Shown: one piece after another, positions 1,381 to 42,967 of the stretch | Layout: every line of letters begins with the position of its first letter | Position numbering within the stretch: the first letter of the stretch is position 1 | DNA from: Gammaproteobacteria bacterium | GTDB taxonomy: Bacteria > Pseudomonadota > Gammaproteobacteria > Steroidobacterales > SZUA-146 | DNA: 42,967 nucleotides | Direction: 5' to 3' | NCBI GenBank assembly: GCA_013002925.1 | Contig: JABDLQ010000274.1 | Span: forward strand, 1-42,967 | The notes under the pieces: model-generated | What the model saw: only the letters and a program-made list of their open reading frames with translations | Databases searched by the model: none | What the model was told of the DNA's origin: nothing | Translations under genes and position numbers: made by a program

Positions 1381-1396
1381 CGTGATTAACTTCACA
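1381..1396. promoter_or_regulatory. Near-consensus CRP/Vfr-type palindrome CGTGA-TTAACT-TCACA
   Basis: 9/10 match to TGTGA-N6-TCACA, about 35 bp upstream of the riboswitch. Confidence 0.35.
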
Positions 1397-1429: not shown

Positions 1430-1518
1430 TACATTGCAAAAGGCTCACCTGTCGAAAGGCAGGGTCGCAAAGCTACCGGTCTAAGGGATTTATCCTATGA
1501 AAGCGGGGTTACCAGTGA
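1430..1518 (+). promoter_or_regulatory. Cyclic di-GMP-I (GEMM-I) riboswitch
   Basis: 'AAGGCTCACCTGTCGAAAGGCAGGGTCGCAAAGCTACCGGTCTAAGG...ATGAAAGCGGGGTTACCA' carries the GEMM-I hallmarks: GAAA tetraloop, 'CGCAAAGC', 'CCGGTCTAAGG' and 'AGCGGGGTTACC'. The G equivalent to Vc2 G20 is retained, suggesting c-di-GMP rather than cGAMP specificity. Confidence 0.9.
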
Positions 1519-1686
1519 ATAGTAGAGAGGCCATTTTAAGGCGTCCACAATTTGTTGTTACCCGCCGTTACATTCCAACCCCACCGTTAGGTTTTACAGA
1601 CAAGACGCTGAGACACTTTCGGCTGAGTTATTTTGATCAATTTACGCTGTGTTTATTTTTTTGAAAGATTTGAGATCAAATTACTT

Positions 1687-4600
1687 ATGAGTGTTTATCA
1701 TATTGCGCGAAAGATTCAGTGGGTGGTGTTACTCGTATTAAGCGGGGCTGTCGTTCACTCTACATTCGCGGATGCCATCGATGATCTATTACCCGGTCAA
1801 TGGTATGCTGCGCCTAACTCGAAAATGCAGAGCGTCAATCCTTGCCCGACAGGCGGTTGTGCGTATACCGGCCAGACTGGTTTTCGTTCAGTTCAGATTG
1901 CGTGGAGCGGTGCGGCCTTTGACACCAATAGTGACAGGCTTATTGTCTGGGGTGGGGGTCACGGCGATTACTGGGGCAATGAAGTCTATGTCTTTGACGT
2001 AAACTCTTCACAGTGGTCGCGCTTGACGGAACCCAGCACGCTGGGCCCGAATTCGCAGGAATGCACAGGTATCAATCCGGATGGTCGGCCACGTTCCAGG
2101 CACACCTACAACAATCTCGATTTTTCGCCTGAGCTGAATGCATTTATCAGTTTCGGCAATAGTGGCACGTCGCCTGCAAATATTTGCGCTGATCGTAAGA
2201 CCTGGATTTTGCCGCTTGACAGCGCCACACCGGAGTGGCAGCTGGGCACTGATAATACCCTGTCTGGTGCGACCGGTATGGGCGCGACCGCCTACGATCC
2301 GGTGCGCGGAACATTCTGGCATCAACGGTCCGATGTCGGTGGGTTTGGCATGTATGACCCTGCGACGCACACGTGGCAAAACTATGGTTCCCGGGCGTTG
2401 GCAATTTATGCAACCGGTGCCATCGATCCACTGCGAGATCAAATGCTGGTTATCGGTGGAACTGCCAGCCAGGCATTTGTCTGGGATCTGGCAAACCCGA
2501 ACAACCCACCGCTGAATCTTTTAAGCAACTCCACTTTCACGTCAACCGACACTGATGGTATAGCAGGTGGTCGTGGCGTTGGCCTTGCCTATGATCCTGT
2601 CGTTGACGCTTTTGTCGTGTGGGACGGTGGTACCACTGTTTATACCATTGACCCTGACACCTGGGCGGTCAGCCGGATCAATGCTGACGCCGGTAACACA
2701 GTGAATCCGGGCACAGCGATTACCGCTGGAACGTATGGGCGCTTTCGCTATGTGCCATCCCGCAATGTCTATATTCTTGCCAACGGGGTTGACAAGGATG
2801 TGTTTTTCTATCGGCTCTCAGATGGTGGCGGTAGCACTGCAGCACCGGTCATCGGTATGACGCTGACGAACAGCAATATATTGATTGGCGAAGATGCTGA
2901 TTTGAGCTGGTCCGTTGCCCATGCTGATTCCTGTGTTGCCAGCGGAGACTGGTCAGGTAGTAAGCCGGTAGCAGGCAGCACGACATTTCCCGCGCTGACA
3001 AGCGATCAAACCTTTACGCTTACTTGTAGCGGTGCGGGCGGGACCAGCAATAAATCGATTACCGTCACGGTGTCAGCGCCACCGCCACCACCAGCCGGGA
3101 CAGAAGACTGGGAGGCGCGTTCCACCGCACCGGGCGTATTGTCTGCCATTGGTTTTGATGTGGAAAGCGAAGTGACGAACTGGATACATCTTGATTCCAA
3201 GCAGGATCATGTGGTGTGGGAAACTGCAAACACGTCTTCCGGTGCGGGTGCATTACGCTTTAACATTTTAAAAACGGACGGAGCAAATTCAGGCAACTGG
3301 CGTCGATGGTTAGCCGATGACGAGCGCGAATTTGTTGAAGGCGATGAGTTCTATATTTCTTATCGTCAATATATTCCTGAATACTATGCCACTCATCAAT
3401 TCCTCGGCGGCGGTGGCTGGAAACAGATAATCGTAAGTCGTAACGCCGGCAATATGAATGGAGTGAACTATGTAGGTACACCAACCGGATCCAACCAGGT
3501 CAATGAAATTGTGATGAACAATTACCTTTATCGGAGTTTGCCACAAGGTTATCATCGCACCACGAATGGCTCCTATGTTGGTTTTTACACGGGTGCATCA
3601 ACCGCCTGTTCCCATACCGACTTCAGATTACAGAATGCTGTCGATCGCGGACCGCAATCGATTGGTACAGCGTGTGAAAATGACCGTGCACGCTATGGTG
3701 GGTTGTTTTCCTATGGCTCCCGTACCGGAGTACCGGATCCTCTCACCGGCGCATTTACTTTTACGCCCGATGAGTGGCATTCGTTTAAAATGTGGATCAA
3801 ATTGGGCAGCCAGGGTACCACTACCAGAAATACTCACGTCAAAATCTGGGCGGCGCATGACGGTGAAGATTGGGACCTCATCATAGATCGCGATGACGTC
3901 GATCTGGGTGGAGGTCCTGCGCACAATGCGTATTGGTTATTACCGTATGACACAGGCAAACAACCAGATCCTACCCGTGAGGATACGTATACGCTTTATG
4001 ACGAAGTAATCGTATCTCTGAATGACATTGCCGCGCCGGGAGCGACTGGCTCGGGTGCGACACTGCCCACGGTTGATTTGACGGCCAGCTCCGGATCTAT
4101 CCTGGACGGCGGTTCCGTGCAATTGAATTGGACTTCAACTGCTGCGGATACTTGTACGGCATCAGGGGGCTGGAGTGGTGCAAAAGCGACCAGCGGCACC
4201 GAAACTGTTGGTCCGCTGTCGGCGACAACAAGTTTTGTTCTGACGTGTACAAATGCAGACGGAAGCCGCTCAGACAGCTTGACGGTGACCGTCGAGGCAC
4301 CTATGCCTTACACGATATTACAGAGTAAAACAATTCACCATCAGGATACATTTGAACTTGACGGAGCCACTGTCTCGGATGGAATTTTTGCCTTTGTCTC
4401 GCCGGGTTCCGGGCTATCACAGGTGCAGTTTTTTCTCGATGATCCAACAGCCAGCGGTACACCTTACAGTGTCGAATTTGTTGAACCCTTTGACTTTGCC
4501 TATGATCCGGTTGGAGGGTTTGATACGACAACTATCGCCAATGGCAGCCATTCGTTAACCGCCAAATTATTTCTGGTTGGCGGAGAGGAGCAGATCATCT

Positions 4601-7600
4601 CGGTGTCTTTTACGGTTGCCAATGAGATCATTGTGCCGCCACCGACACTCAGTTTTTCCGCGAGTCCGGTCGCAGTTGATTTTGAGGGCTTTACTACGCT
4701 CACCTGGTCGACAACAAGTGCATCTTTATGCGTGGCGGGCGGAGACTGGACAGGAAGCCGCGCTGTCAGCGGCAGCGAGTCTGTTGGCCCGTTGACCAGC
4801 AATAAAACGTTTTTTTTGAGCTGCACCGGACCAGGTGGGAGCGTCAACCAGACCGCCACAGTACTTGTGGCGTCACCTGACGCCCCTGAGCTGACGATCA
4901 CAGCCACACCTTCTTCTGTTGATTACAACGGCGCTACAACAGTCTCCTGGACCACTACAGGCACAGAATCCTGCGTGGCCTCGGGCGGATGGGTGGGAGT
5001 CCGCCCGGTTTTTGGCTCGGAAACCGTCGGGACTCTGCAGGAAAACACTGATTTTACGCTGACATGCACAGGCCCTGGCGGATCTGTGACAGGTACGGCA
5101 GGCGTGACCGTCGCACCTGTGCCGGCGCCTACTGTGACTCTGGTTGCATCGCCTCCGGCGGTTGACTACAACGGTGCATCAACACTGAGTTGGAGCTCTA
5201 CCAATGCCGAATCGTGTGCGGCGTCGGGTGCCTGGAGCGGCGCACGTTCGTCCCTGGGCGTATTGACTGTCGGTCCGCTGGAAGAAACCGCGGAGTTTAC
5301 GCTGGTGTGTACGGGTGCAGGAGGCACGGGCAATGCCAGTGTCACCGTGACGGTGGCGGCGCCGGCGCCGCCCGAATTGAGCTTTACCGTTTCATCATCG
5401 TCAATCGCCTACGATGGCTCCATTTTGGCGTATTGGACAGCAACTAATGCCACCAGTTGTACCGCAAGCGGTGACTGGTCGGGCGTGCGGGGCCTCAACG
5501 GTGTTGAAGCGCTGGGTCCATTGCAGGAAGACGCCGTATACACATTAACCTGTAGTGGTCCCGGTGGATCGGTCAGCCACACCCAGACTATTTCAGTGGC
5601 CGCACCGCTGGCACCTGTCATCGGATTTACTACCGATGCAGCATCGGTAGATTACGGCAGCGGCGCCCAGTTAAGTTGGGATGTCAGTAATGCAACGAGT
5701 TGTATCGCAAGTGGTGCGTGGAGCGGCACACGGTCACTGACTGGCACCGAGGCCGTAGGTCCGCTGTTAAGCGACAGCACCTACACATTATCGTGCACAG
5801 GACTTGGCGGGACGGCGAGTCAGACGGTGACGGTGACGGTCAATCCGCCTGTACCCACGGTGTCCCTGACAGCGACACCGCTGTCCATTCCGTTTGAGGG
5901 CACAACGACGCTCTCGTGGACCAGCGAGCATGCTTCTGAATGTACAGCCAGCGGTGCATGGTCTGGTACTCTGGCAGGCAGTGGCACGCAAGTATCGGCG
6001 TCTTTATCCACTAACAGTACGTTCATGATTACGTGCACGGGCACTGGTGGGTCTGCTTCAGATTCACTGACGGTTAACGTAGCTGCACCCGGGGCTCCGT
6101 CCGTCGGTTTCTCTGCCAGTCCGGCAGCCGTGGCCAGTGGTGAGTCCACTACATTGACCTGGACATCAAGCAATACAACCGCTTGTAATGCGGCAGGTGA
6201 CTGGTCGGGTACCAAGGCGATCAATGGCAGTGAAAGCGTAGGCCCACTGACCGCCACCAGTACGTTTATACTGACGTGTTCTGGTGTAGGAGGCGACGTC
6301 ACACAGACCATTACAGTTCCGATATTGGTGCCTGAACCGGTTGTAACGTTAACCGCAGCGCCTGGGAGTGTGCCGCATAATGGCAGCACCACACTGACCT
6401 GGACCTCGACGAATGCGAACAGTTGTGAAGCGTTTGGCAGCTGGTCAGGGCTGCAGGCCCTGAACGGCAGCCTGACGGTTGATAATATCGATAGCGAACG
6501 CACGTATGCGTTGTACTGTGAAGGATCCGGTGGCACGGCCAGTGCACTGGTGACCATTGCGGTCGGCGCTCCACCTGTCCCTGAAATCAGTCTATCCACA
6601 GACGTTGTGACAGTCATGTATGGCGATACCGTGACCATCAACTGGGCAGCTACACAAGCCACAACATGTGAAGCCTACGGGGGTTGGTCAGGGATCAAGA
6701 CATTAATTGGCACAGAAGAGAGTTTGCCAATTACCAGTGACACTACGTATGTGCTGGTGTGCTCTGGCCCCGGTGGGCAGGTAGATGCCGCAACAGTCGT
6801 TACGGTTGCGGTTGAGCCCCCCAATGTAACGCTGGAGGCGTCGCCGCTGACGGTAGATTACGACGGTTCAACGACACTGACGTGGACTGCCACCGGAGCG
6901 GACTCATGCCAGGCTTTCGGCAGCTGGTCGGGTGTAAAGGTTACGTCAGGTACCGAGGTTATCGACAATCTTGCCAATACCGGAAATTTCGTATTGTTGT
7001 GTTCCGGCCCGGGAGGTGACGGGGACGCGAGTGTTTCGGTGTTGGTGAACCCGGCACCGCTACCGCTGGTCAGCCTGATCGCAGAGCCCGCAGAAGTCAG
7101 TTTTGGTGGTACAACAACCTTAAGCTGGTCAAGTCGCGATGCAGATACCTGTGAAGCATTTGGTGGCTGGTCCGGCGATCGTGATACTGAAGGGAGCTAT
7201 GTGGTCGAAGATTTACTGGCCACCACGAGTTTCACGCTTTTGTGTCAAGGTCCGGGTGGCAGTCGCGTGTTGATTGCCAATGTTGCGGTTGGAGCTCCGG
7301 AAGCGCCGATCATAGAGTTCTATGTCGAGCCCGATTTTATTGCTTACGGCGGCGCAGCTATTTTGAACTGGACAGTCAGTCAGGCTGATTCCTGTTTCGC
7401 AACCGGCGACTGGTCCGGCGACAAAGCCCTGACGGGTGTTGAAACAATCTCACCTTTGTACTCAACGGCAAATTTCGCATTGACATGTACCGGCGTGGGC
7501 GGCGGCTCGAGTGTGTCTGTCAGCGCAACCGTGGCGTCACTGGCTGACATGGCTTTACAGAATTTTGAAGACAATGAACTCAATACCGACCCGGAAGGTT

Positions 7601-10116
7601 GGATCGACACGGGTCCGGATTTTGTCACGACCCAGTTGTCATCCGCATTCAAGGTGCGTGATATTGCCGGTAGCCGTGCTCTGGCAATCACCCGTACGAC
7701 TGGGCTGGATATGCATTCACACTATGTGCTTGACGATTCGGGTAGCTGGCAGGACTATCGATATAGCGGACGGATTCGAATTCAGAACACCGAGGATAAG
7801 GCGGGAGTGACAATTCTGTCGGCGATGCCGGAGTTAGCTGCTTATTACCGTTTAGGTGTGGCAAGTACTGGTGAAAACTTTGTGTTGAGTAATGTTGGCA
7901 CGGGTGTGAACTGTGCAGGTGATCTGGACACTGGCGTACTTGCGAGTGCTGGCAACTGGTATCGTTTCGCCATCGAAGCGCAGACCAGCGAGACTCAAAC
8001 TGATGTACGTGCGCGTGTCTGGATCGATGGTGAAGCCGAGCCAGCAGAATGGCAGGCACAATGCACGGATACGGGCCCGGGTAGACGATTCCATGGGCGC
8101 GTAGGTGTCTGGGTCAGTCTGCAGTCGCCGCTCGCTGGTGGCGCCTGGGATGAATTGCTGGTCACGCCTTTGAGTGGAGCACCGGTATTACCACCACTTC
8201 TGACGTTTTACGCAAACCCGGTGACCGTAAGCAGCCTGGACTTCTCGACACTGACCTGGGAGGCTACTAATGCAGATAGCTGCGTCGCAAGCGGTGCCTG
8301 GGAAGGGGCGCGCAGCGTAAGTGGTAACGAACAAACAGCACCGCTGACGGAAAACAGCACTTTTACTATGCAGTGTAATGGCCCGGGAGGCAGTGCCACG
8401 AGTTCTGTTGTTGTAGCGGTTGGTGATGCGGTACCACCTGAACTTAGTTTTGCTGTAACGCCGGACAGCGTGTTTTCCGGGGACGATGTCACACTAACCT
8501 GGTCGTCGACTTCGACAGCGATATGTACCGCTTCCGGCGACTGGAGTGGCGCACGAAGCACCAGTGGTTCAGAGTCAATTTCCAATGTGATGGACGATAT
8601 GACATTCACCCTGGATTGTGTCGGCGCGGGAGGTAGCGTTTCACAGACAGTCAATCTTCTGCTGGCCGACATCATCCGCGACCCGCAACTTGCGTTCTCA
8701 GTTGACCCGCTGAGACTAGGTGTCGACGGCACCGTGATTCTCAACTGGAGCTCAGAAAACACCACCACATGTGAAGCCAATGGCAGCTGGAGCGGGTCTC
8801 GCCCGGTCAGCGGAGGTGAAGTAGTCGGCCCGATAAGCGCATCGGAGTCTTATGTCCTGATTTGTAGTGGTCGCGGTGGCACGGTCGCAGATGCTATTGC
8901 GGTTTCCTATGTCGATTCGGATAGTGATGCCATGCCAGATATTTGGGAGACTGCCGTTTTTGGAAGTTTGTCCAACAATGGACTGGGCGACACGGATGGT
9001 GATGGACTGCTTGATCAGGAGGAGTATCTGAGCGGCACTGATCCGCGCGATACAGATTCCGATGATGATGGACAGAACGATTTCGATGAACTTCAGTTTG
9101 GCAGTGATCCGCTGGATCCAGGCGATAATTTCGGTGATTCGTCGCCGGCGCAGCCGATTGTCGCTGACTCGGACAACGCCAGTCTCGCGTTACTGGAGAT
9201 TGACGTAATGAACGGATATAGCGACCCGGATGGAAATCCATTGCAATTTTCACACTGGCAGATCAGCTTGAGTGAGAGTTTTGATAGCATGGTGTTCGAC
9301 CGGGAAGTGTCGGGCTCAACGGCGTTGATGATACCGAGTGGGGTGTTGGACCCTGGGGTCACCTATTACATCAGAACGCGTCACGTGGATTCTTCCGATA
9401 CGCCATCCCCGTGGTCGGACGTTGCGACAATGGTTGCTGATACGGCGTACCCAAATGATCTTGATGGCAATGGCATCGATGACGAATTCCAGGTGCCTGG
9501 AAACCCGGACACCAACGGCAATGGAACGCCTGATCAGAGTGAGGGCATCTGCAATCTGTATGATGCGATGGGTGGCAATATCATTGGTATTACCAGCAAC
9601 GTCGGCGTGACTCGTTGCTATACCTCGGTATCAAATGATGTCGTAAGCGGCATTAGTTTACCGGATGGAATGGAATTGCCATTGGGGATGTTCAGTTTCC
9701 GCATCGAAGGTCTGTTTGTCGATGAAGCTTCGCCTGCACAGGTTTTTGTGAGCGTGTGGCTGCCCACGACTTATGATCCTGCCAGTGGTTGGTACAAGTG
9801 GGACGAAACAAGCGGCGAGTTAACCGACTATTCAGACTATGTCACCTACAATGACAATCGTGTGACAATCAGCCTGACCGATGGCGGCCCCGGAGATCAG
9901 GATGGGGTGGTTAACGGTATCATTGTTGATCCTAGTGGCCCTGCGATAGCCGCGGCGCCGCCGCCACCGCCGCCGCCGCCCGCACCGCCGACTACCCCGT
10001 CTGATCCGGATCCGTCGACACCTGTGGCGAGTGACAGTGGGGGAGGCGGCGCTCTGCACTGGGTGACGTTGCTGCTGCTGTATACGCTCGCATTGCGCAG
10101 ACGCCGGCCGCAGTAA
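1687..10116 (+). CDS. Giant secreted multidomain protein: kelch-like N-terminus, polysaccharide-lyase-like/jelly-roll region, 17 Ig-like repeats, thrombospondin-type-3-like Ca-binding repeats, choice-of-anchor U-like region, GlyGly-CTERM-like tail
   Basis: ORF listed from TTG 1633. ATG 1687 gives a clear signal peptide (MSVYHIARKIQWVVLLVLSGAVVHSTFADA). Repeats of the type 'LTWTSTNATSCTASGAWSGTK...GPLT..TTFTLTCTGPGG'; 'DTDGDGLLDQEEYLSGTDPRDTDSDDDGQND'; C-terminal 'SGGGGALHWVTLLLLYTLALRRRRPQ'. Confidence 0.9.
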   Translation: MSVYHIARKIQWVVLLVLSGAVVHSTFADAIDDLLPGQWYAAPNSKMQSVNPCPTGGCAYTGQTGFRSVQIAWSGAAFDTNSDRLIVWGGGHGDYWGNEVYVFDVNSSQWSRLTEPSTLGPNSQECTGINPDGRPRSRHTYNNLDFSPELNAFISFGNSGTSPANICADRKTWILPLDSATPEWQLGTDNTLSGATGMGATAYDPVRGTFWHQRSDVGGFGMYDPATHTWQNYGSRALAIYATGAIDPLRDQMLVIGGTASQAFVWDLANPNNPPLNLLSNSTFTSTDTDGIAGGRGVGLAYDPVVDAFVVWDGGTTVYTIDPDTWAVSRINADAGNTVNPGTAITAGTYGRFRYVPSRNVYILANGVDKDVFFYRLSDGGGSTAAPVIGMTLTNSNILIGEDADLSWSVAHADSCVASGDWSGSKPVAGSTTFPALTSDQTFTLTCSGAGGTSNKSITVTVSAPPPPPAGTEDWEARSTAPGVLSAIGFDVESEVTNWIHLDSKQDHVVWETANTSSGAGALRFNILKTDGANSGNWRRWLADDEREFVEGDEFYISYRQYIPEYYATHQFLGGGGWKQIIVSRNAGNMNGVNYVGTPTGSNQVNEIVMNNYLYRSLPQGYHRTTNGSYVGFYTGASTACSHTDFRLQNAVDRGPQSIGTACENDRARYGGLFSYGSRTGVPDPLTGAFTFTPDEWHSFKMWIKLGSQGTTTRNTHVKIWAAHDGEDWDLIIDRDDVDLGGGPAHNAYWLLPYDTGKQPDPTREDTYTLYDEVIVSLNDIAAPGATGSGATLPTVDLTASSGSILDGGSVQLNWTSTAADTCTASGGWSGAKATSGTETVGPLSATTSFVLTCTNADGSRSDSLTVTVEAPMPYTILQSKTIHHQDTFELDGATVSDGIFAFVSPGSGLSQVQFFLDDPTASGTPYSVEFVEPFDFAYDPVGGFDTTTIANGSHSLTAKLFLVGGEEQIISVSFTVANEIIVPPPTLSFSASPVAVDFEGFTTLTWSTTSASLCVAGGDWTGSRAVSGSESVGPLTSNKTFFLSCTGPGGSVNQTATVLVASPDAPELTITATPSSVDYNGATTVSWTTTGTESCVASGGWVGVRPVFGSETVGTLQENTDFTLTCTGPGGSVTGTAGVTVAPVPAPTVTLVASPPAVDYNGASTLSWSSTNAESCAASGAWSGARSSLGVLTVGPLEETAEFTLVCTGAGGTGNASVTVTVAAPAPPELSFTVSSSSIAYDGSILAYWTATNATSCTASGDWSGVRGLNGVEALGPLQEDAVYTLTCSGPGGSVSHTQTISVAAPLAPVIGFTTDAASVDYGSGAQLSWDVSNATSCIASGAWSGTRSLTGTEAVGPLLSDSTYTLSCTGLGGTASQTVTVTVNPPVPTVSLTATPLSIPFEGTTTLSWTSEHASECTASGAWSGTLAGSGTQVSASLSTNSTFMITCTGTGGSASDSLTVNVAAPGAPSVGFSASPAAVASGESTTLTWTSSNTTACNAAGDWSGTKAINGSESVGPLTATSTFILTCSGVGGDVTQTITVPILVPEPVVTLTAAPGSVPHNGSTTLTWTSTNANSCEAFGSWSGLQALNGSLTVDNIDSERTYALYCEGSGGTASALVTIAVGAPPVPEISLSTDVVTVMYGDTVTINWAATQATTCEAYGGWSGIKTLIGTEESLPITSDTTYVLVCSGPGGQVDAATVVTVAVEPPNVTLEASPLTVDYDGSTTLTWTATGADSCQAFGSWSGVKVTSGTEVIDNLANTGNFVLLCSGPGGDGDASVSVLVNPAPLPLVSLIAEPAEVSFGGTTTLSWSSRDADTCEAFGGWSGDRDTEGSYVVEDLLATTSFTLLCQGPGGSRVLIANVAVGAPEAPIIEFYVEPDFIAYGGAAILNWTVSQADSCFATGDWSGDKALTGVETISPLYSTANFALTCTGVGGGSSVSVSATVASLADMALQNFEDNELNTDPEGWIDTGPDFVTTQLSSAFKVRDIAGSRALAITRTTGLDMHSHYVLDDSGSWQDYRYSGRIRIQNTEDKAGVTILSAMPELAAYYRLGVASTGENFVLSNVGTGVNCAGDLDTGVLASAGNWYRFAIEAQTSETQTDVRARVWIDGEAEPAEWQAQCTDTGPGRRFHGRVGVWVSLQSPLAGGAWDELLVTPLSGAPVLPPLLTFYANPVTVSSLDFSTLTWEATNADSCVASGAWEGARSVSGNEQTAPLTENSTFTMQCNGPGGSATSSVVVAVGDAVPPELSFAVTPDSVFSGDDVTLTWSSTSTAICTASGDWSGARSTSGSESISNVMDDMTFTLDCVGAGGSVSQTVNLLLADIIRDPQLAFSVDPLRLGVDGTVILNWSSENTTTCEANGSWSGSRPVSGGEVVGPISASESYVLICSGRGGTVADAIAVSYVDSDSDAMPDIWETAVFGSLSNNGLGDTDGDGLLDQEEYLSGTDPRDTDSDDDGQNDFDELQFGSDPLDPGDNFGDSSPAQPIVADSDNASLALLEIDVMNGYSDPDGNPLQFSHWQISLSESFDSMVFDREVSGSTALMIPSGVLDPGVTYYIRTRHVDSSDTPSPWSDVATMVADTAYPNDLDGNGIDDEFQVPGNPDTNGNGTPDQSEGICNLYDAMGGNIIGITSNVGVTRCYTSVSNDVVSGISLPDGMELPLGMFSFRIEGLFVDEASPAQVFVSVWLPTTYDPASGWYKWDETSGELTDYSDYVTYNDNRVTISLTDGGPGDQDGVVNGIIVDPSGPAIAAAPPPPPPPPAPPTTPSDPDPSTPVASDSGGGGALHWVTLLLLYTLALRRRRPQ
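2841..7540 (+). repeat. Ig-like repeats 1-14 (about 240-243 nt each; repeats 1 and 2 are separated by the lyase-like domain, and repeats 2 and 3 by an unrelated ~100-aa segment)
   Basis: Manual alignment. Each unit has Cys-x3-G-x-W-(S/T/V/E)-G and a second Cys. Repeats 3-14 are contiguous from about 4636. Confidence 0.9.
8188..8910 (+). repeat. Ig-like repeats 15-17
   Basis: Same Cys-pair/WSG repeat unit, resuming after a LamG-like insertion at about 7543-8175. Confidence 0.85.
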
Positions 10117-10171: not shown

Positions 10172-11410
10172 CTAGACCAGAAATTCCCGTGGCGCCGGAT
10201 GACTCAAAAAGTACTGTGGGCTGGCAGTGTATCCATAGGCACCACTTTGAAACACGACCACAAGATCATCGATGTCCGCCTCCGCAAGTGTCATTTTCGC
10301 GGCGAGCAGGTCCAGAGGCGTGCACAATGGTCCGACTACAGATGCAGTTGCCGTTGACGTCGCCTGCATTTTAGTACCGATGGCAACCGGGTAGTTTTTG
10401 CGCAACACCTGTCCAAAGTTACCGCTCGCGGCCAAATGGTGATGCAAGCCACCATTACAAATCAAAAAAATCTGCCCGCGAGACACTTTTTTGTCGGTGA
10501 TACGGCACACATAGATGCCGGATTCAGCAACAAGGTAACGACCCAGTTCAACCACCAGATCCGCCTGCGGTAATTGTTGCTGCATCGCGGCGCTCAGGGT
10601 GTTCAGACTGGCGCCAATGGGTTCGATATCAAGTGGTGTTTCATTCGGAAAATAAGGCACGCCAAGACCACCACCGATATTCAGCATACGCACGGGTGAG
10701 GGCGCAAACCGGGCAAGGCGCACCGCGAGTTCGCAGGCCTTGTTCTGGCTCTCAATAATTGCATCCGCACGTAAATTCTGGGACCCACTAAAAATATGAA
10801 AACCGTGAAAGTCCAAATGCATATACTGCATGGTGGAGAGAACTGCCGGAACCTGTTCAGCATCAATGCCGAACTGCTGCGGCCCGCCAGCCATTTTCAT
10901 GCCCGAATTCTGCAGTTGAAAATCCGGGTTTACGCGCAGCGCAACTTTTGGGCGAAAGCCCATGTCAGCGGCAAGCCCGTCAATTCGTTCAAGTTCAGTG
11001 GCACTTTCGCAGTTGATTACGATGCCCTTCGTGATGGCCAGCCGCAGTTCGTCGGTTTGCTTGCCTGGTCCGGCAAAACTGATTTCATGGCGCGGTGTTT
11101 GTGTCGCAGCAGCAACCTCCAGTTCGCGCCCTGAGGCGACATCCAGCCCATCCACCAATGACGCCATGTGCGCTACAAGTTCGGGCATCGGATTAGCTTT
11201 GATGGCGAAATGTAATTTAACAGAACGCGGAAAGTGCTCTCTCAGCTGGGCAACTTTTTGCGCCATGATCGAGCGGTCGTATGCATAGAACGCCAGGCCA
11301 TCAGCACGCGTTGCCAGTTCACTCACGGTGTGACCGCCAATGACCAGGTCATTATTCTGCACGTCGAAACACGTGATGGGGCTATGGCGGTCAAATTCAA
11401 TGGTGCTCAT
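10172..11410 (-). CDS. PLP-dependent decarboxylase, exosortase A system-associated type
   Basis: Ornithine/diaminopimelate decarboxylase-like fold-III protein: 'FYAYDRSIMAQKV', 'LHFAIKANPMPELV', 'LDVASGRELEVA', 'LNIGGGLGVPYF'. Overlaps the upstream acyl-CoA ligase gene, the pairing expected in exosortase A loci. Confidence 0.85.
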   Translation of the reverse strand: MSTIEFDRHSPITCFDVQNNDLVIGGHTVSELATRADGLAFYAYDRSIMAQKVAQLREHFPRSVKLHFAIKANPMPELVAHMASLVDGLDVASGRELEVAAATQTPRHEISFAGPGKQTDELRLAITKGIVINCESATELERIDGLAADMGFRPKVALRVNPDFQLQNSGMKMAGGPQQFGIDAEQVPAVLSTMQYMHLDFHGFHIFSGSQNLRADAIIESQNKACELAVRLARFAPSPVRMLNIGGGLGVPYFPNETPLDIEPIGASLNTLSAAMQQQLPQADLVVELGRYLVAESGIYVCRITDKKVSRGQIFLICNGGLHHHLAASGNFGQVLRKNYPVAIGTKMQATSTATASVVGPLCTPLDLLAAKMTLAEADIDDLVVVFQSGAYGYTASPQYFLSHPAPREFLV

Positions 11411-12987
11411 TGCTGCAATCCTTTCAGCAATGCAGGTAATTCCTGTGCGAGCCCGGCGCGATCAATTTTGCCATTGGCGTTGCGTGGCATATCGGCCACC
11501 CAGATGATGTGCTTTGGCAGCATGAAATTGGCCAGTTCCTGGCGGCACGCCAATGACAATGCGGCCGTATCCTGCTCTGAGTCGTGCGTCGCGACCACGA
11601 TCGCTACAATGGCTTCTCCAAGGTCTTTGTCAGCAGTGCCAAGGGCGACAGCCTCGCTGACCATGCCGGTCGCAAACAGAGCTTCTTCGACTTCGTTCGG
11701 GCTGACCCGATATCCGCTCGTCTTGATCATTTCGTCGCGGCGACCGACAAAGTAAAGATAACCATCTTCGTCACAGCGCACCCGGTCTCCCGACCACACG
11801 GCAATTTCTTCCATTACCAGTTCCTTCTGATGATGCGGAGCGGGTTTGAAGCGCGCCGCCGTTTTCTCCGGATTATTCCAGTATCCCAAAGATACCAGGG
11901 AACCGCGATGGACGAGTTCCCCGATTTCATCTGGCGCACAAATTCCGCCATCGTCGTTGACCACCATAATCTCGGCATTGGGAATTGCTTTGCCCATGGA
12001 ACCGTGACGTTTATCCAGCTCTGCAGGTGGGAGCCAGGTTGACCGGAATGCCTCTGTTAATCCATACATCAATACCGGGTCCGTTTTTGGTAGTGCGGTA
12101 CGCAGGGATTCAAGTGTCACTTGTGGCATCGCTCCCCCGGAATTTGTCCAGTATCTCAGATGGTCGGTTGCCGTTTCAGGCCAGGGCAGCCCCGCCAGCT
12201 GATTCCACAACGGAGGGACGCCGGCAAGCCCGGTAATTTCTTCCTGGCACACTTTACGAATGACATCGCGGGGCAGAAGATATTCCATCAACACGACGCT
12301 GGCGCCACGGCAAAACGCAGTAGTGAGCTGACTGAACCCGTAATCAAAGCTGAACGGCAATACGGCCAGGAGTTTATCGGACGCCGTGTTTTCCAGGTAC
12401 TCGGACACGCTAAATGCCCCGGTCACCATATTCTTGTGACTGAGAACCACGCCCTTCGGCTTGCCGGTGCTACCTGATGTATAGAGTATGGAAGCGACAT
12501 CGGCATCGATAATGCGCCACATATCTACCGATGGCGCCGCCAGTAAGTCGTCCCAGGAAATCACCTGTTTGCTTGACGATAGCTCTTGTAATTCGTCCAC
12601 CAGCACAATCGCTTCGAGCGCAGGACAGTCGGCAATTACTGTCTCCAGGCTCTGCGCGCGCTGCCGTGAAGTGACCAGAATCCGCACGTCACAATCTGTC
12701 AGAATGTGCTGCACCTGGGCAGGTTTGAGCAAAGGGTTTACCGGAACGAATACACCACCGGCATGCGCGGTTGCAAAAATGCTGACCACCGTTTCGATTT
12801 GTTTGGGCAGGTAGATGCCGATACGGTCCCCTTTACGCATTCCGGCGGCAATAAAGCCGTTGGCCGCCGCGCGCATTAGCTCCGTCAACTGGCCATAATC
12901 CAGCCGCCGTGAGCGATCAATCAATGCCGGCGCCGAATCGCCAGTTTTGCCGCCATGAGTGATGAGTTGTGACAGACACAGAGTCAA
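11407..12987 (-). CDS. Acyl-CoA ligase (AMP-forming), exosortase A system-associated type
   Basis: AMP-binding motif 'ILYTSGSTGKPKGVVLSH' and 'YLYFVGRRDEMIKTSGYRVSPNEVEEAL'. 4-nt overlap with the decarboxylase. Confidence 0.85.
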   Translation of the reverse strand: MTLCLSQLITHGGKTGDSAPALIDRSRRLDYGQLTELMRAAANGFIAAGMRKGDRIGIYLPKQIETVVSIFATAHAGGVFVPVNPLLKPAQVQHILTDCDVRILVTSRQRAQSLETVIADCPALEAIVLVDELQELSSSKQVISWDDLLAAPSVDMWRIIDADVASILYTSGSTGKPKGVVLSHKNMVTGAFSVSEYLENTASDKLLAVLPFSFDYGFSQLTTAFCRGASVVLMEYLLPRDVIRKVCQEEITGLAGVPPLWNQLAGLPWPETATDHLRYWTNSGGAMPQVTLESLRTALPKTDPVLMYGLTEAFRSTWLPPAELDKRHGSMGKAIPNAEIMVVNDDGGICAPDEIGELVHRGSLVSLGYWNNPEKTAARFKPAPHHQKELVMEEIAVWSGDRVRCDEDGYLYFVGRRDEMIKTSGYRVSPNEVEEALFATGMVSEAVALGTADKDLGEAIVAIVVATHDSEQDTAALSLACRQELANFMLPKHIIWVADMPRNANGKIDRAGLAQELPALLKGLQQ

Positions 12988-28141: not shown

Positions 28142-29905
28142 GTGTCACATGTAAAAATTAAGAAAAACAAAAGCTTAGCGAAAAGTCATTTGCCACGTCG
28201 GGGTTCCAGAGCGGCTCTGCAGGCGATCAGCGACGGTGTTGTTGTCACTAATGAGCATGGGATGGTCGAATTCCTGAATCCCGCGGCTGAGTTGTTGTCG
28301 GGTTGGCGGACCCAGGATGCTGCCAATCTTCCGGTGGATAAAGTCGTTCATCTGTGTGACGAGAATTCCGGCCAACCCATGGAAGACACCGGCGTCTGGA
28401 AACGTCCTGACATCGCCTGTAACAAGGTCGGGCGTTGCACGTTACAGTCGCGTTCCGGTACTCAGCATCTGATCGACGCCAATGTCTCGCCAGTACTGGA
28501 CGCCGATGGCACCGTAACAGGAACGGTTCTGGTACTGCGGGATTTGAGTCAGGAAACCGGCTTGCTCGAACGACTCGATTACCAGGCAACGCATGATTCG
28601 CGTACCGGGTTGTTAAATCGTTCTGCCTTCGAACAGGCGGTTCGTGAATTGCATATGGACCCTGCCTCAGCGGGTGCAAGAAACGCAATCATTTACATAG
28701 ACGTGGATCAGTTCAAAATAATCAACGACACTTGTGGGCATGTCGCCGGCGATCATTTTCTTGAAGCGTTGTCCGAAAAATTGCAGAGCCGTGTCCGCGA
28801 AAGCGATGTGCTGGCGCGTCTGGGCGGTGACGAGTTTGGCGTGTTGTTGCGTGGCTGTACACGCCGCCATGCGCAAGCCCTGGCGGAACAGATTTGTCAC
28901 CTTGTTGAAGATATGCGTTTTGCCTGGGGTGGTCGCCTGCACCGTCACACGGCCAGCGTGGGAGTGACGGCCATCAGTGAAGATGCCAACGTAGCTTCAG
29001 TTTTGAGTGCCGCAGAAATTGCCTGTTTTACCGCAAAAGATCAGGGTCGAAACAGGGTGCACGTCTATCACAATGAAAATGTGCCTAGTCGGCATGTTGA
29101 AATGCAATGGGTGGCACGCATTTCGAGAGCGCTGGACGAAAACCGGCTCACCGCATTTCATCAACCCATCGTACCACTGGGCGATGACCATTCCCGGGAC
29201 GAGCGGCCGCACTACGAGCTATTGGTGCGCATGACTGATCGGTTCGGGCAAATCATACTGCCAAAATATTTTATTTCTGCAGCCGAACGGTACAACCTGA
29301 TGCCCAGTATCGATCGTTGGATGGTGACCGAAGTATTGTCGCGCCTGGTCTGGAGAAAAGATCTGGGACCCGGCTTCAAACCGTATACGCTGTCCATCAA
29401 TCTGTCGGGTACTTCGCTCAGTGACACCAGCTTTATGAACTTTCTCGAACGCGAGCTGGAACGCTATCCTATCGAGCCGCGCACTTTGTGTTTTGAGATA
29501 ACTGAGACTGCAGCCATCTCCAATATTGCGGACGTTGCCAACGTAATGCGCCGCCTAAAGAGTCGGGGCTGCATGTTTTCGCTGGACGACTTTGGCAGTG
29601 GCTTATCGTCGTTCGCCTATCTCAAAGGCCTGCCAGTCGACCTGATAAAAATTGATGGTGATTTTATCGCCGATATTCTGAACTCGCCGGCCGATACCGC
29701 TTTTGTGGATGCCATCTGTCGGGTCGCAAAAGCCATGAATATACGCACGGTGGCTGAGCACGTTGATTCAACTGAACTTTTGGACGCTTTGAGCGAGCTT
29801 GGCGTTGATTATGCGCAGGGCTATCACATCGCCAAACCGCGTCGGGTACACAATCGGTCAAGTTTTGCGTTGCCGGGCTCGAAAACGCCACTCGAGGCCG
29901 TCTGA
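28142..29905 (+). CDS. PAS-GGDEF-EAL dual-domain c-di-GMP enzyme
   Basis: 'RESDVLARLGGDEFGVLLRG' (I-site RxxD plus GGDEF); 'YELLVRM' (ExLxR), 'CFEITETAAI', 'LDDFGSGLSSFAYLKGLPVDLIKIDGDFI' and 'AQGYHIAKP'. Confidence 0.93.
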   Translation: MSHVKIKKNKSLAKSHLPRRGSRAALQAISDGVVVTNEHGMVEFLNPAAELLSGWRTQDAANLPVDKVVHLCDENSGQPMEDTGVWKRPDIACNKVGRCTLQSRSGTQHLIDANVSPVLDADGTVTGTVLVLRDLSQETGLLERLDYQATHDSRTGLLNRSAFEQAVRELHMDPASAGARNAIIYIDVDQFKIINDTCGHVAGDHFLEALSEKLQSRVRESDVLARLGGDEFGVLLRGCTRRHAQALAEQICHLVEDMRFAWGGRLHRHTASVGVTAISEDANVASVLSAAEIACFTAKDQGRNRVHVYHNENVPSRHVEMQWVARISRALDENRLTAFHQPIVPLGDDHSRDERPHYELLVRMTDRFGQIILPKYFISAAERYNLMPSIDRWMVTEVLSRLVWRKDLGPGFKPYTLSINLSGTSLSDTSFMNFLERELERYPIEPRTLCFEITETAAISNIADVANVMRRLKSRGCMFSLDDFGSGLSSFAYLKGLPVDLIKIDGDFIADILNSPADTAFVDAICRVAKAMNIRTVAEHVDSTELLDALSELGVDYAQGYHIAKPRRVHNRSSFALPGSKTPLEAV

Positions 29906-34173: not shown

Positions 34174-35070
34174 ATGGTAAACCACGCAGAACTTGCAATA
34201 TTGTTTGCTGATGTTGTTGGCAGCACCAAGCTCTACGAGCTAATGGGTGACGCCAAGGCACGCGTCACTGTGCAAAACTGTATAGACCTGATGACTCGTG
34301 CAACAGAGGAAAACTCGGGTAACGTCATCAAGACCATGGGTGACGAAGTTATGTGCACATTTCCAACGGTCGACAACGCGGTCGAGGCGGCCGCTCAGAT
34401 GCAGCAAATGATCAGTGAAGATCTCAGTGTCGACGATGTACCGGTTGCGATTCGTGTAGGGTTTCATTTTGGCCCGGTGATGCTCGAGGATGACGATGTG
34501 TTTGGCGGGGCTGTGCATACCGCTAATCGAATGACCAGTCAGGCAAAAGCCGCGCAAATTATCACGACTGCAATTGCCGTCGGAAAAATGTCTTCTGACT
34601 GGCAGTCCTGGACACGGCAAATTGATCTGGCGACCGTAAAAGGTGTCAAGGATGAAATTGCGTTGTTTGAGGTGTTGTGGCAGCGGGAAGACAACACCCG
34701 CATGTTGCCAACCATAAACTGGAGTCAGGCAACTGATGTGCGTAATCAGCGGCTGCGCCTGACCTATCGGGGCCAGGAAGTAGTGGTTGACAATGTTCGT
34801 CCCTACGTCAGTATTGGCCGAGCGGAAGACAGCGATATCGTTGTCAAAGATACGTTAATTTCGCGATTGCATGCACGTATCGAATTTGTACGGGGAAAAT
34901 TTGTCCTGTATGACGAAAGCACGAATGGAACGTGCGTAAAACAAGACTCCGGCGAAGAGCAATTTGTGCGGCGTGACAGCTTGCAAATCACGGGTGCTGG
35001 CTCTATCGGCCTGGGGCGTGTGCCACAGCCTAATTCACCGCAGGCAATACAATTCAATTATGAAGAATAG
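34174..35070 (+). CDS. Class III adenylate/guanylate cyclase homology domain fused to an FHA domain
   Basis: 'ELAILFADVVGSTKLYELMG' and 'NVIKTMGDEVMCTFP'; FHA core 'VSIGRAEDSDIVVKDTLISRLHARIEFVRGKFVLYDESTNGTCV'. Confidence 0.88.
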   Translation: MVNHAELAILFADVVGSTKLYELMGDAKARVTVQNCIDLMTRATEENSGNVIKTMGDEVMCTFPTVDNAVEAAAQMQQMISEDLSVDDVPVAIRVGFHFGPVMLEDDDVFGGAVHTANRMTSQAKAAQIITTAIAVGKMSSDWQSWTRQIDLATVKGVKDEIALFEVLWQREDNTRMLPTINWSQATDVRNQRLRLTYRGQEVVVDNVRPYVSIGRAEDSDIVVKDTLISRLHARIEFVRGKFVLYDESTNGTCVKQDSGEEQFVRRDSLQITGAGSIGLGRVPQPNSPQAIQFNYEE

Positions 35071-36621: not shown

Positions 36622-37626
36622 ATGACAGATTTCCGTCAACAGCGAGTATGGTGGCAGCTGCTTTGCGCAGCCGGAATCCTGTGGAGTCGTGCTGACGCAT
36701 TTGCTGAGGGCACAATCGCCGGTACCGACATCGCTAATACTGCCCGGATCGAGTACAGCGTCGGTGTCAATTCTGTCACCACGTCCTCAAACACCGCCGT
36801 AGTGACGGTTGCAGAGATTATCGACGTCGATGTCGTGTTACAAAGCGGCCAGGTACCCGTAGGCCCCGGTGAGACAAACCAGGGCCTCGTGTTCACGATT
36901 ACCAATACCGGTAATGGTACTGAAACGTTTACGCTGATTGCGGACAGCACGCTGCCAGGTGATGATTTTGATCCGGTGTTGTCGTCACCGAACCCGATAT
37001 TTTTTGACACCGATGGCAGCGGTGATTTCTCGGCTGCAGACGTCGCCTATCTTCCGGGAACGAATGATCCAGAATTGAGTCCGGACGAGCATATCACTGT
37101 AGTGGTCCTGAACGACATACCAGCCAGCGGTTTGGTTGACACCCAGACTGGCAGCACGCGCCTGCACGTTGAAGCACGCACAGGGGTGGGTGTGGCCGGC
37201 ACAATTTTTGTCGGTGCCGGTGATGGGGGTGTGGATGCGATGGCGGGAGCCACGGAAGGCGATGGCGAAGACACCGGCGAGTACATGATCAAGACCATCG
37301 ACCTGAATGTTTCAAAATCGGCCGGCATTAGCGATCCCTTTGGCAACGCTCTACCTGTGCCAGGTGCCGAAATTACCTATCGCATCGAAGTTTCGGTAAC
37401 CGGTACCGGGGTGGCATCCGGTGTTGTGATGACAGATGTTATTCCTGCGCACACCACGTATGTGCCCGGGACTATCGAGCTTAATGGTACGCAGCTCACT
37501 GACGCACCTGATGCCGATGTCGGTGAGTTTAACGCCGGCACTGATCCAGCCGTTGCGGTGCAAATAGGCGATATTTCTGAAGCCGGCGGCCCACAGGTTG
37601 TCGAATTTAAAGTTGTAATCAATTGA
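36622..37626 (+). CDS. Exported DUF11-type repeat protein
   Basis: Signal peptide; 'NTARIEYSVGVNSVTTSSNTAVVTV' and 'SKSAGISDPFGNALPVPGAEITYRIEVSVTGTGVASGVVMTDVIPAHTTYVPGTI'. Confidence 0.75.
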   Translation: MTDFRQQRVWWQLLCAAGILWSRADAFAEGTIAGTDIANTARIEYSVGVNSVTTSSNTAVVTVAEIIDVDVVLQSGQVPVGPGETNQGLVFTITNTGNGTETFTLIADSTLPGDDFDPVLSSPNPIFFDTDGSGDFSAADVAYLPGTNDPELSPDEHITVVVLNDIPASGLVDTQTGSTRLHVEARTGVGVAGTIFVGAGDGGVDAMAGATEGDGEDTGEYMIKTIDLNVSKSAGISDPFGNALPVPGAEITYRIEVSVTGTGVASGVVMTDVIPAHTTYVPGTIELNGTQLTDAPDADVGEFNAGTDPAVAVQIGDISEAGGPQVVEFKVVIN

Positions 37627-37643
37627 CCCGCAAGGGGGAGCAC

Positions 37644-38132
37644 ATGATGAAATCTATCCGCATGTTCATAACCGTCTCTGTAGCCATTGCAAGTGTCGCG
37701 GTTGGCGCCCAGCAAGCACCGGTTTCAATGACGACAGTTGCAGAGAAAGAGGAAGCCTATACCGACGGGCAGGGTATTGAACGCACCCGCCTGGTACCCG
37801 TGGCAACCGTTATTCCCGGTGATCGCATCGTCTACACGATTACTTTTGCAAACAAGGGAGAGGAAGTCGCAGATAACATCAATGTCGTCGATCCGATTCC
37901 TGAACAGATGCGCTTTATTGCGGGCTCGGCGTTTGGGCCGGGCACCAAAATCACTTTTTCCGCTGATGGCGGAAAGACGTTTGGACTGCCTGGTGACATT
38001 ACGGTAGTTGATGACACAGGGCGCGTGCGATCTGCATCACCAGCGGATTACACCCATATCAGATGGAAATTTCTGAGCCCGCTGAAACCTGGAACACAAG
38101 CGTATGCGCAGTTTAAGGCAGAGCTGAAATAA
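37644..38132 (+). CDS. Exported DUF11-type small protein
   Basis: Signal 'MMKSIRMFITVSVAIASVAVGAQQ'; 'VIPGDRIVYTITFANKGEEVADNINVVDPIPEQMRFIAGSA'. Start chosen after 'aaggggga'. Confidence 0.75.
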   Translation: MMKSIRMFITVSVAIASVAVGAQQAPVSMTTVAEKEEAYTDGQGIERTRLVPVATVIPGDRIVYTITFANKGEEVADNINVVDPIPEQMRFIAGSAFGPGTKITFSADGGKTFGLPGDITVVDDTGRVRSASPADYTHIRWKFLSPLKPGTQAYAQFKAELK

Positions 38133-38186
38133 GTTATCCCGGGCCTGCTGATGGCAGGTCTGGCTGTTTTTATTGAGGAGTGTATT

Positions 38187-39446
38187 GTGAAATTTTCACG
38201 CAAAAACCTGTACCCGCTGTTGCAGCTGCTGATTCCCGCGTTAGCATTGATTTATACGCAAGCCGGGCTGGCTGCCGGAACTGATCCGGGAGGTACAGCA
38301 GCGGGTACCAGCGTAGCCAACCAGGCGACACTGGACTATGAAATTGGTGGTATCCCACAAACCCAGGTGTTGAGTGACAATGACGGTAATCCCGCCAACG
38401 GCTCCAATGCAACGACCTTTGTCGTTGATCGCAAACTGGACGCACTGGTCAGCGAAAATGGCGCCACCTACAACAGTTCCACCACTGCCACAGTGGTACC
38501 CGGACTTTCCCAGGGAGGTGGCAGTACCGGGGCCGTGTTGTCATTTACGGTAACCAACGAGGGCAATGAGGTTCAGGACTTTAGCCTGTCGGCAGCGCCC
38601 ACGGTGTTTGATCCTTTCAGCGGTACGGATAATTTTGATGCCACAAACGTCAATATTTTTGTTGATGGCAATGGTAATGGTACCTATGAACCGGCGATTG
38701 ACACCGCAACTTACATTGACGAACTGGACTACTTTGGGAACGGCGCAGGTAATCCGAGCTCCACTGTAGTTTTTGTGGTCGCCGATATTCCGGCGGTACA
38801 GGTCAACGGTGACATTGCGGCCTATGTGCTGAATGCGCAGGTAGCTGAAGGCGGCACCGCTGCCACACAAGGCGCAGATATCACGACTGATGATTCCGCA
38901 GTGGCCGATGATCCTGCAGTTGTACAGGATGTGTTTGCAGATAGTGAAAACACCAACAATGCCGGAGATGGAATCAGCGATGGAATCGCTTCTATTGAAG
39001 ATGCATACCTGATATCGTCGCCTACACTGACGATTGCGAAAAGTTCAGCGGTGATTAGTGATCCGTTTACATGCCCGGTTTTGCCATGTGCACCGGGTAC
39101 GGATCCGAAGGCGATACCGGGAGCGGTCATTGAGTATACGATCGCCATTGTTAACGCTACAGGAGCAGCTGCCGCGACCAATGTCAGCGTGTCAGATGAT
39201 CTGTCATCTGAAATCGTTGGTGGTGGGGGCACCGAAAGTATCGACTTTTTGCTGGGTCAATATGGTGGCGCTGGCGCCGACATAGAGTTGACTGTGAACA
39301 GTGGAGGAACCGTGGTAACCAATCTCGGTGCATCAGCGTTTGACGGTGACGCGGGTCAGTTTGTTGCCAACGTTGTGACAGTGACAGTCGCTAACCTGGC
39401 GGGTGGGGAGTCTGCAGAAGTCAGGTTCCGCGTGGAAATTCAGTAA
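38187..39446 (+). CDS. Exported DUF11-type repeat protein
   Basis: GTG start at 38187 after 'gaggag'; 'VANQATLDYEIGGIPQTQVLSDN' and 'IPGAVIEYTIAIVNATGAAAATNVSVSDDLSSEI'. Confidence 0.75.
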   Translation: MKFSRKNLYPLLQLLIPALALIYTQAGLAAGTDPGGTAAGTSVANQATLDYEIGGIPQTQVLSDNDGNPANGSNATTFVVDRKLDALVSENGATYNSSTTATVVPGLSQGGGSTGAVLSFTVTNEGNEVQDFSLSAAPTVFDPFSGTDNFDATNVNIFVDGNGNGTYEPAIDTATYIDELDYFGNGAGNPSSTVVFVVADIPAVQVNGDIAAYVLNAQVAEGGTAATQGADITTDDSAVADDPAVVQDVFADSENTNNAGDGISDGIASIEDAYLISSPTLTIAKSSAVISDPFTCPVLPCAPGTDPKAIPGAVIEYTIAIVNATGAAAATNVSVSDDLSSEIVGGGGTESIDFLLGQYGGAGADIELTVNSGGTVVTNLGASAFDGDAGQFVANVVTVTVANLAGGESAEVRFRVEIQ

Positions 39447-39471
39447 CGCGAGTAAGGATACGGGAATACGT

Positions 39472-42400: not shown

Positions 42401-42967
42401 CTCCGCAGCACAAAGTCAGCGTTTCGATAAACGGTGAGCCTGTCAGCGGCATACATTTTGATGGCGTGACGCGTAAGCAGGATAAATCTGTGATTATCAG
42501 TCGCTGGCGTGGCACTAACATCGTGCCCGGTGATAATCAGCTTGAGATCGAGGTGCGTGATCGCGATGGCGCGGTTGCTCAACGCATCGTGCGTAACGTT
42601 CACTACAGCGGCGGGCCGGTGCGGGCGCGATTCAATCAGAGCAGCTCGAAACTGGTCGCAGATGGCAGAAGCCGGCCGCTCATTGTACTGGATATGTTTG
42701 ATCGCGAGGGTTACCCGGCCAGACCAGCTGCGGTCGGAGTTTATCATGTCGCTCCTCCGTATCGTTCCCAGTGGGAGGTTGATGCTGCGCGCGAAAACCA
42801 ATTGATCAGTGTGGGTGACCGTGATCCGGTTTACTCCCTCAATGAGCAAGGGCAGGCAGTGATAGAACTGGAGCCGACCAGTCGCGCCGGGGAGGTGGTG
42901 TTAAACCTGAGTTTTGAAAACAATCGGGAACAGGAAGTTCGTGTCTGGCTGGCCCCGGCTGCGCGTG
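39472..42967 (+). CDS. Large DUF11 / SdrD B- or carboxypeptidase-regulatory-like / OmpA-family surface protein, 3' truncated by the window edge
   Basis: Manual translation is open for >1,160 codons from ATG 39472 with no stop. DUF11 'LFLQKSTVTTVAAPGDFVQYELRLDNANPTSNVTAARILDQLPAGFRYV'; 'ARVYMEDGRYAITDEGGRFHFEGIQPGAHVV'; OmpA-like 'IRVRAVGHTDNVRIAPENRREYANNYELSLDRARTVANYL...RARNRRVELTIW'. Not in the supplied ORF track. Confidence 0.88.
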   Translation, partial: MLSHLLMVSGLPGALRWLMRCAQQRRQRKRTDSIVGGGASTHSRRGARRWSARFTVLLFLPVCGITATSAQTLPGTQLQNIAGITWLAAPGGVSSVTSNPVTIRTVLPDSSAAVSFTRPALVSGTVDTLYETACQGSAGTVALPDPTLLDGTSLPTGSSLQFSTSNVFHAGEPLFIRLEDADQNLDGLSIDFIDVTVEFEATGDVEFIKLAETGENSGVFLGYVPTSITAAIRSDCVLQVAVNDRATVRYTDPTDGADIAANSALVDPRGVVFDSATGQPVDGVTITLIDTLTGMPAIVRGDDGISSYPAQVISGGSATDGAGNNYTFAPGGYVFPLVAPGSYRLQVDSPPGFSSPSLVSIAELQQLPGAPFALGAASYGAVFVVTPGPIIHIDIPLDTASSDLFLQKSTVTTVAAPGDFVQYELRLDNANPTSNVTAARILDQLPAGFRYVRGSTVIDGNTAADPQIDTDGRSLTFTLGTLGPTQSRRVSYVTEITTATNGQQATNTAVAQAGGAAQSNIASTTITLAEDLFASRSILIGRIIEGSCDNDVSNDTVGLANARVYMEDGRYAITDEGGRFHFEGIQPGAHVVQLDVDSLPRDYEVMPCQENSRFAGRSFSQFVDLRPGALWRADFYVQKTPPKTGDVSIELSSVPNGDRVEYALEITGAGSVGLEDIRSMVLLPDGSNYLAGSATLDAQPVVDPEVEGAVLAWNLGARSGDWHHVLRFSTQINSHGSREHLTKAMALFTTPAKKQQRTPLAENLFVFVPPAYERMEWVLEPRFGVRNAQLTDTDRQDIKMLVSRIDLTRDIRVRAVGHTDNVRIAPENRREYANNYELSLDRARTVANYLRDLLKLTPSQITVEGKGPDMPVASNTTRDGRARNRRVELTIWAERQQIGLQQISAEQSRLNSGAQKATVTGSLTADEMQDTAVPQSDDDLYLDTAWADRLSPGIELLLPREGFNPAIPSLKIAVKHAPQHKVSVSINGEPVSGIHFDGVTRKQDKSVIISRWRGTNIVPGDNQLEIEVRDRDGAVAQRIVRNVHYSGGPVRARFNQSSSKLVADGRSRPLIVLDMFDREGYPARPAAVGVYHVAPPYRSQWEVDAARENQLISVGDRDPVYSLNEQGQAVIELEPTSRAGEVVLNLSFENNREQEVRVWLAPAAR

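Follow-up and report, generated by a model that had tools for sequence, protein, structure and literature searches.

The nearest worked system to the one described here is gbpA of Vibrio cholerae, which encodes a secreted, GlcNAc-binding colonization protein and whose promoter is activated by CRP-cAMP (PMC4545359, PMC4744006). The gbpA leader contains the GEMM-I aptamer Vc1, situated close to the 5′ end of the RNA; Vc1 acts as an ON element, with no apparent terminator or anti-SD sequence (PMC4545359, PMC4744006). The stretch of 42,967 nt that we analysed, hereafter the window, comes from a gammaproteobacterium of the Steroidobacterales and contains a leader which resembles that of gbpA in having a GEMM-I aptamer near the predicted transcript start, a CRP-type site upstream of it, a long spacer in which neither a terminator nor an anti-SD sequence is visible, and a secreted, carbohydrate-related surface factor as its product. 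It differs in that the protein is of another family and size and is GlyGly-CTERM anchored, and in that the CRP-type site is a perfect palindrome whose predicted class II spacing is fixed and conserved among the paralogues. The kind of switch is therefore already known, and the arrangement is a new, well-conserved example.

The reading that we favour, with a probability of roughly 0.7, is that a CRP-type promoter and a GEMM-I leader together place the gene for a surface or matrix protein under the control of two messengers, cAMP (through CRP) and c-di-GMP. Computation supports it with the aptamer itself, a CRP-type promoter element that is conserved, the finding that aptamers go with long forms of the protein, and a sorting signal together with its processing enzyme. 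We infer ligand binding, the identity of the activator as CRP, the transcription start and the sign of the response from sequence, and the mechanism would run as follows. A CRP-family activator, most likely cAMP-CRP, would bind the box at 1382–1395 in the class II position; transcription would begin at about 1430, and the GEMM-I aptamer would be the first RNA structure to emerge and would bind c-di-GMP. The c-di-GMP-bound state of the aptamer would then decide expression of the 8.4-kb coding region. Export of the giant protein would probably follow the type II route, rhombosortase would process the GlyGly-CTERM tail, and the product would be held at the surface, where its kelch and lyase-like domains would probably contact the exopolysaccharide that the genes around it specify.

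The aptamer and its CRP-type promoter

A covariance search against Rfam identified positions 1432–1516 (+ strand) as a c-di-GMP-I (GEMM-I) riboswitch aptamer (RF01051; score 74.8 bits, gathering threshold 35; E = 5.2e-13), the sole Rfam match across the 43-kb window. The match covers all 87 positions of the model and keeps the ligand contacts of Vc2, with G20 represented by G1443 (+ strand), A47 by A1470 and C92 by C1512; a G at the first of these indicates the c-di-GMP rather than the cGAMP type. The element is thus confirmed as a genuine, full-length aptamer of the c-di-GMP-I class, and the preliminary description, which had recognised both the GEMM-I core and the G equivalent to Vc2 G20, was right on each count, as it was in placing the aptamer about 170 nt from the ATG (170 nt separate the aptamer end at 1516 from the ATG at 1687). 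As a representative of RF01051 the aptamer is unremarkable: it has the full-length match and the ligand contacts, and nothing notable sets it apart. Some homologues are instead preceded by the variant c-di-GMP-I-GGC (RF03167).

The assembly of the source genome (479 contigs, 84.5% complete) contains three further GEMM-I elements. Two of them (L005:103–187 and L007:1854–1932) stand before genes for lipoprotein-like products whose N-termini are similar, and the third (L006:656–731) precedes a 149-aa gene without a family match. A perfect CRP-type box lies ∼80 nt upstream of the GEMM-I element in the L005 leader and ∼54 nt upstream of that in L006.

Comparison of the sequences 5′ of the aptamers brought out a GTGA-N6-TCAC palindrome, which in the window is GTGATTAACTTCAC at 1382–1395 (+ strand, centre 1388.5). 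Exactly 22 nt past this box is a −10-like hexamer, CATAAT (1418–1423, + strand). Each of the five genus leaders has the same box, and the box–N22–CATANT spacing is identical in these five and in G126, with related hexamers at the same −10 place in G023, G073 and G158. Among the 15 long-form leaders described below, a perfect box was found in seven, against 0.025 expected from shuffled sequences (maximum 1), and a box with no more than one mismatch, centred 41–46 nt before the aptamer, in nine (0.035 expected from shuffles). Six of the 15 lack a box at the 41–46 position, and the leader of G110 has a perfect box at 57.5, outside it. The composite of box and hexamer is rare, occurring two, three and two times in three genomes of the genus, where a control pattern does not occur at all; five of these seven occurrences are at genes of the giant-protein family.

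Class II CRP promoters have their box centred at −41.5. Were transcription to start at about 1430 (+ strand), 7 nt past the hexamer, as predicted, the centre of the box would fall at this class II position and the 5′ end of the RNA would lie 2 nt before the aptamer. There is thus a palindromic TGTGA-type site near −41.5 of the predicted start, with a −10 element at the matching distance. Among the genes of the genome is one for a CRP (NF008732 equivalog, 317.9 bits, cut-off 266) in which, on alignment to a solved CRP, the cAMP-contact cassette GE...RSAWVR is conserved. The promoter upstream of the aptamer apparently reads cyclic AMP, and the regulator that binds the box is most likely cAMP-CRP. 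The first reading of the leader therefore holds for its aptamer part and was incomplete beyond it: of the span 1430–1686 only 1432–1516 is the aptamer proper, 1517–1686 is spacer, and the functional leader begins further upstream, at the overlooked promoter (1382–1423) which is predicted to set the RNA start at the aptamer. Elsewhere in the window are genes for a class III nucleotide cyclase with an FHA domain (34174–35070), a possible source of cAMP, and for a PAS-GGDEF-EAL c-di-GMP enzyme (28142–29905).

Boxes of this type also occur before other GEMM-I leaders of the order, a perfect box lying within 160 nt in 12 of 90, where shuffled sequences gave 0.17 (maximum 2); the distances vary more than in the long-form leaders. 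The genome has just one further composite CRP-type promoter, 55 nt 5′ of the start codon of a gene for a GAF-GGDEF diguanylate cyclase (L203:504–545 and 600–1535, on G000 C412), and an HDOD-domain gene follows. We suggest, tentatively and with some doubt, that GEMM-I leaders across the order constitute a regulon of two messengers, in which CRP-type promoters would start transcription at the aptamer and cAMP status and c-di-GMP would be combined on one RNA for surface proteins; the second composite promoter would then make a feed-forward loop, from CRP to the cyclase, to c-di-GMP and to the riboswitch. The loop is only an idea, since no close homologue of this cyclase was found in seven relatives, nor was conservation of its promoter.

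The giant protein and its surroundings

The gene downstream of the aptamer encodes an exported protein of 2,809 aa (1687–10116, + strand, from the ATG at 1687 of an open frame spanning 1633–10116), in agreement with the ∼2,800 aa given earlier. By eye, its N-terminus has a hydrophobic, signal-like segment. There follow a kelch-like N-terminal domain (1750–2898, + strand), which has weak Pfam kelch and β-propeller matches and is the part common to short homologues, and a 315-aa domain (3094–4038, + strand) which is conserved in the long-form relatives and weakly resembles the polysaccharide lyase family PF14099, with a score of 13.4 bits that is below the gathering cut-off of 29.9. Sequence searches of the PDB gave only marginal β-propeller-type matches for the kelch domain and no match for the lyase-like domain, for which a single-sequence AlphaFold2 prediction had a mean pLDDT of 31. 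By motif count the protein also contains about 17 Ig-like units. Towards the C-terminus are a choice-of-anchor U domain (9661–9948, + strand; NF041766, 67.3 bits, cut-off 32) and a GlyGly-CTERM sorting signal, GGGGALHWVTLLLLYTLALRRRRPQ (10039–10113, + strand; TIGR03501, 20.7 bits, cut-off 15.5).

A GlyGly-CTERM substrate carries a C-terminal TIGR03501 match over the cut-off together with a signal peptide, here the N-terminal stretch read by eye, and has a rhombosortase as partner; the genome encodes one (TIGR03902, 141.7 bits, cut-off 84). Tail and enzyme both match the described GlyGly-CTERM/rhombosortase system (PMC3237569, PMC6219818). A type II secretin, GspD, is also encoded (548 bits). 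The earlier proposal of a matrix or surface protein is thus borne out, and can be sharpened to a GlyGly-CTERM/rhombosortase substrate. In the open literature we found no report that links such substrates to a riboswitch.

The assignment to an exopolysaccharide locus also stands, as the neighbouring genes are of the exosortase-A/exopolysaccharide type. Upstream is a glycosyltransferase gene (2–1069, + strand), cut by the contig end. This gene order is kept in several relatives: a homologous glycosyltransferase is directly 5′ of the giant-protein homologue in G001 C9, G002 C2, G167, G102 and G152, and no more than about 4.5 kb away in G110. On the other side (10172–12987, − strand) are genes for an exosortase-A-associated decarboxylase (TIGR03099, 583 bits) and acyl-CoA ligase (TIGR03098, 747 bits), both over their cut-offs. 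The locus resembles XrtA exopolysaccharide loci in having the TIGR03098 and TIGR03099 genes beside the giant-protein gene, and the exosortase XrtA itself is encoded elsewhere in the genome (328 bits); it differs in that the tail of the giant protein is GlyGly-CTERM and not PEP-CTERM. Further along the window (36622–42966) is a run of DUF11-repeat proteins, the last of which has an OmpA-like domain and is cut by the contig end.

Aptamers before long and short homologues

Homologues were collected by searching with the kelch domain, in 148 relatives and then in 397 genomes of the order. This gave 15 long-form loci, with frames of 841–2,829 aa, two of which run off the contig end, and 13 short, kelch-only homologues of 377–547 aa. 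Each of the 15 long-form loci is preceded, on its own strand, by a GEMM-I or GEMM-I-GGC aptamer, usually 85–213 nt from the likely start (2 nt in G079), and none of the 13 short homologues has an upstream GEMM-I. Fisher's test gives p = 2.7e-8 for this split when relatedness is ignored; as the loci are related, the value describes the split and should not be taken as a true probability. One locus running off its contig was kept outside these counts. Since every long-form homologue is preceded by the same aptamer class, it is very likely that the aptamer controls the giant-protein gene.

More distantly, two remote homologues of about 700 aa are without GEMM-I. Outside the order, three kelch homologues with an Ig-like unit were found, all truncated by contig ends, and in the two for which some 4 kb of upstream sequence exists no GEMM-I was found in it; the pairing is therefore not universal. 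The short and long forms can occur side by side, as in G267 C83 (L105:881–2014 and 2326–5302), where a short kelch form without an aptamer directly precedes a long form and the GEMM-I of the long form lies between them. The G079 locus (L111, on C10), whose aptamer ends 2 nt from the start codon where others have long spacers, is a natural variant for study of the platform. In several genera of the order, GEMM-I aptamers also precede, with spacers of roughly 100–220 nt, genes for M23-type-looking envelope peptidases with a C-terminal LHFEV motif (L013, L019, L021, L022, L025, L026, L027, L032 and L035). Closely spaced tandem GEMM-I aptamers, about 200–240 nt apart, were seen in several relatives, namely in G013 C28, G026 C27, G032 C152, G050 C5, G060 C34, G075 C200 and G081 C1.

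The spacer and the competing explanations

The 170-nt spacer (1517–1686, + strand) was scanned by folding, for terminators, for complementarity to the aptamer and for C/G content. Neither the 286-nt leader (z = −0.06) nor the spacer (z = +1.10) folds better than shuffled sequences, and the spacer has no strong intrinsic terminator, its weak matches being near the shuffle mean; this is in keeping with the preliminary remark that the platform is not obvious by eye. Two candidates were rejected. A T7 tract (1656–1662) is common to one paralogue (G002 C2) and missing in two others, and the best aptamer/spacer duplex, an anti-aptamer pairing of 1503–1510 with 1577–1582, is not conserved and has p = 0.62 against shuffled spacers. 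The spacer also has a candidate start-site hairpin, whose 5′ arm is GTTATTTTGATC (1627–1638, + strand) and whose 3′ arm, GATCAAATTAC (1674–1684, + strand), is just before the ATG. In leaders of the genus GATCAAATGAY, which covers the start codon or lies just before it, can pair with an arm, GAGTYATTTGATC, located 30–50 nt upstream. Compared with shuffles of the upstream sequence this duplex is the better one, with p = 0.018 in the window and p = 0.019 and 0.009 in two orthologues, and it is absent from G002 C24 and most leaders of other families. Ensemble folding of the leaders with and without the aptamer region revealed no consistent change in accessibility of the start site. We infer, with low confidence, a translational mechanism, for which a hairpin sequestering the start codon is the best candidate within the genus, with moderate support.

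Several other explanations have to be set against these readings. Rho-dependent termination, instead of control of translation, would suit a long, weakly structured spacer with no intrinsic terminator, and the window does have a 78-nt stretch with a C/G ratio of 1.84; the enrichment of C over G is inconsistent among homologues (0.62–2.09), and we regard this route as unlikely. Somewhat doubtful, but deserving more weight, is an OFF switch, in which c-di-GMP binding would free the anti-start arm and close the start site. The 3′ strand of the aptamer can pair beside or over that arm in G001 C7 and G001 C9, which would open the start site when ligand is absent, and complementarity between aptamer and spacer exceeds that of shuffles in these leaders (p = 0.002 and 0.03, respectively) as well as in G002 C24 (p = 0.03). 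In the window such pairing was not seen (p = 0.62), nor is the exchange visible in ensemble folding. By analogy with V. cholerae Vc1/gbpA, we slightly favour an ON response to c-di-GMP.

It is also conceivable, if rather unlikely, that the palindrome serves another regulator of the CRP/FNR superfamily, be it a second CRP-like protein or a c-di-GMP sensor of the Clp kind. The riboswitch would then still control the giant-protein gene, but the promoter would read only c-di-GMP, or some other signal. Clp of xanthomonads binds a TGTGA-type site and c-di-GMP, and the genome has several CRP-family genes, including one for a second CRP-like protein whose 231.8 bits do not reach the CRP cut-off. The genome nevertheless has a full CRP equivalog that exceeds this cut-off, and the RSAWVR cassette of cAMP-binding CRP is kept in both CRP-like proteins, which favours cAMP-CRP. 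Finally, the aptamer might be degenerate or silent, through weak c-di-GMP binding or loss of the platform in this lineage, leaving the gene controlled at the promoter only. The scans of leader and spacer, which found no platform, are consistent with this, as is the behaviour of V. cholerae Vc1, which binds weakly despite conserved contacts and likewise has no visible platform (PMC4744006). We consider it improbable, because the full model and all ligand contacts are kept here, and because the presence of the aptamer before all 15 long-form genes, across at least three families, indicates that it is under selection.

On the favoured reading of joint control by cAMP-CRP and c-di-GMP, the single worked example that we found of CRP plus GEMM-I control, that of gbpA, now has a conserved counterpart in another group, in which the promoter geometry is fixed. 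Long forms have the aptamer and short forms lack it, a strict split that offers a clean comparative handle. The long spacers with no visible platform, a feature common to Vc1, mean that the way in which such GEMM-I leaders act can be tested in natural variants. The arrangement would also tie c-di-GMP riboswitches to giant surface proteins sorted by rhombosortase.
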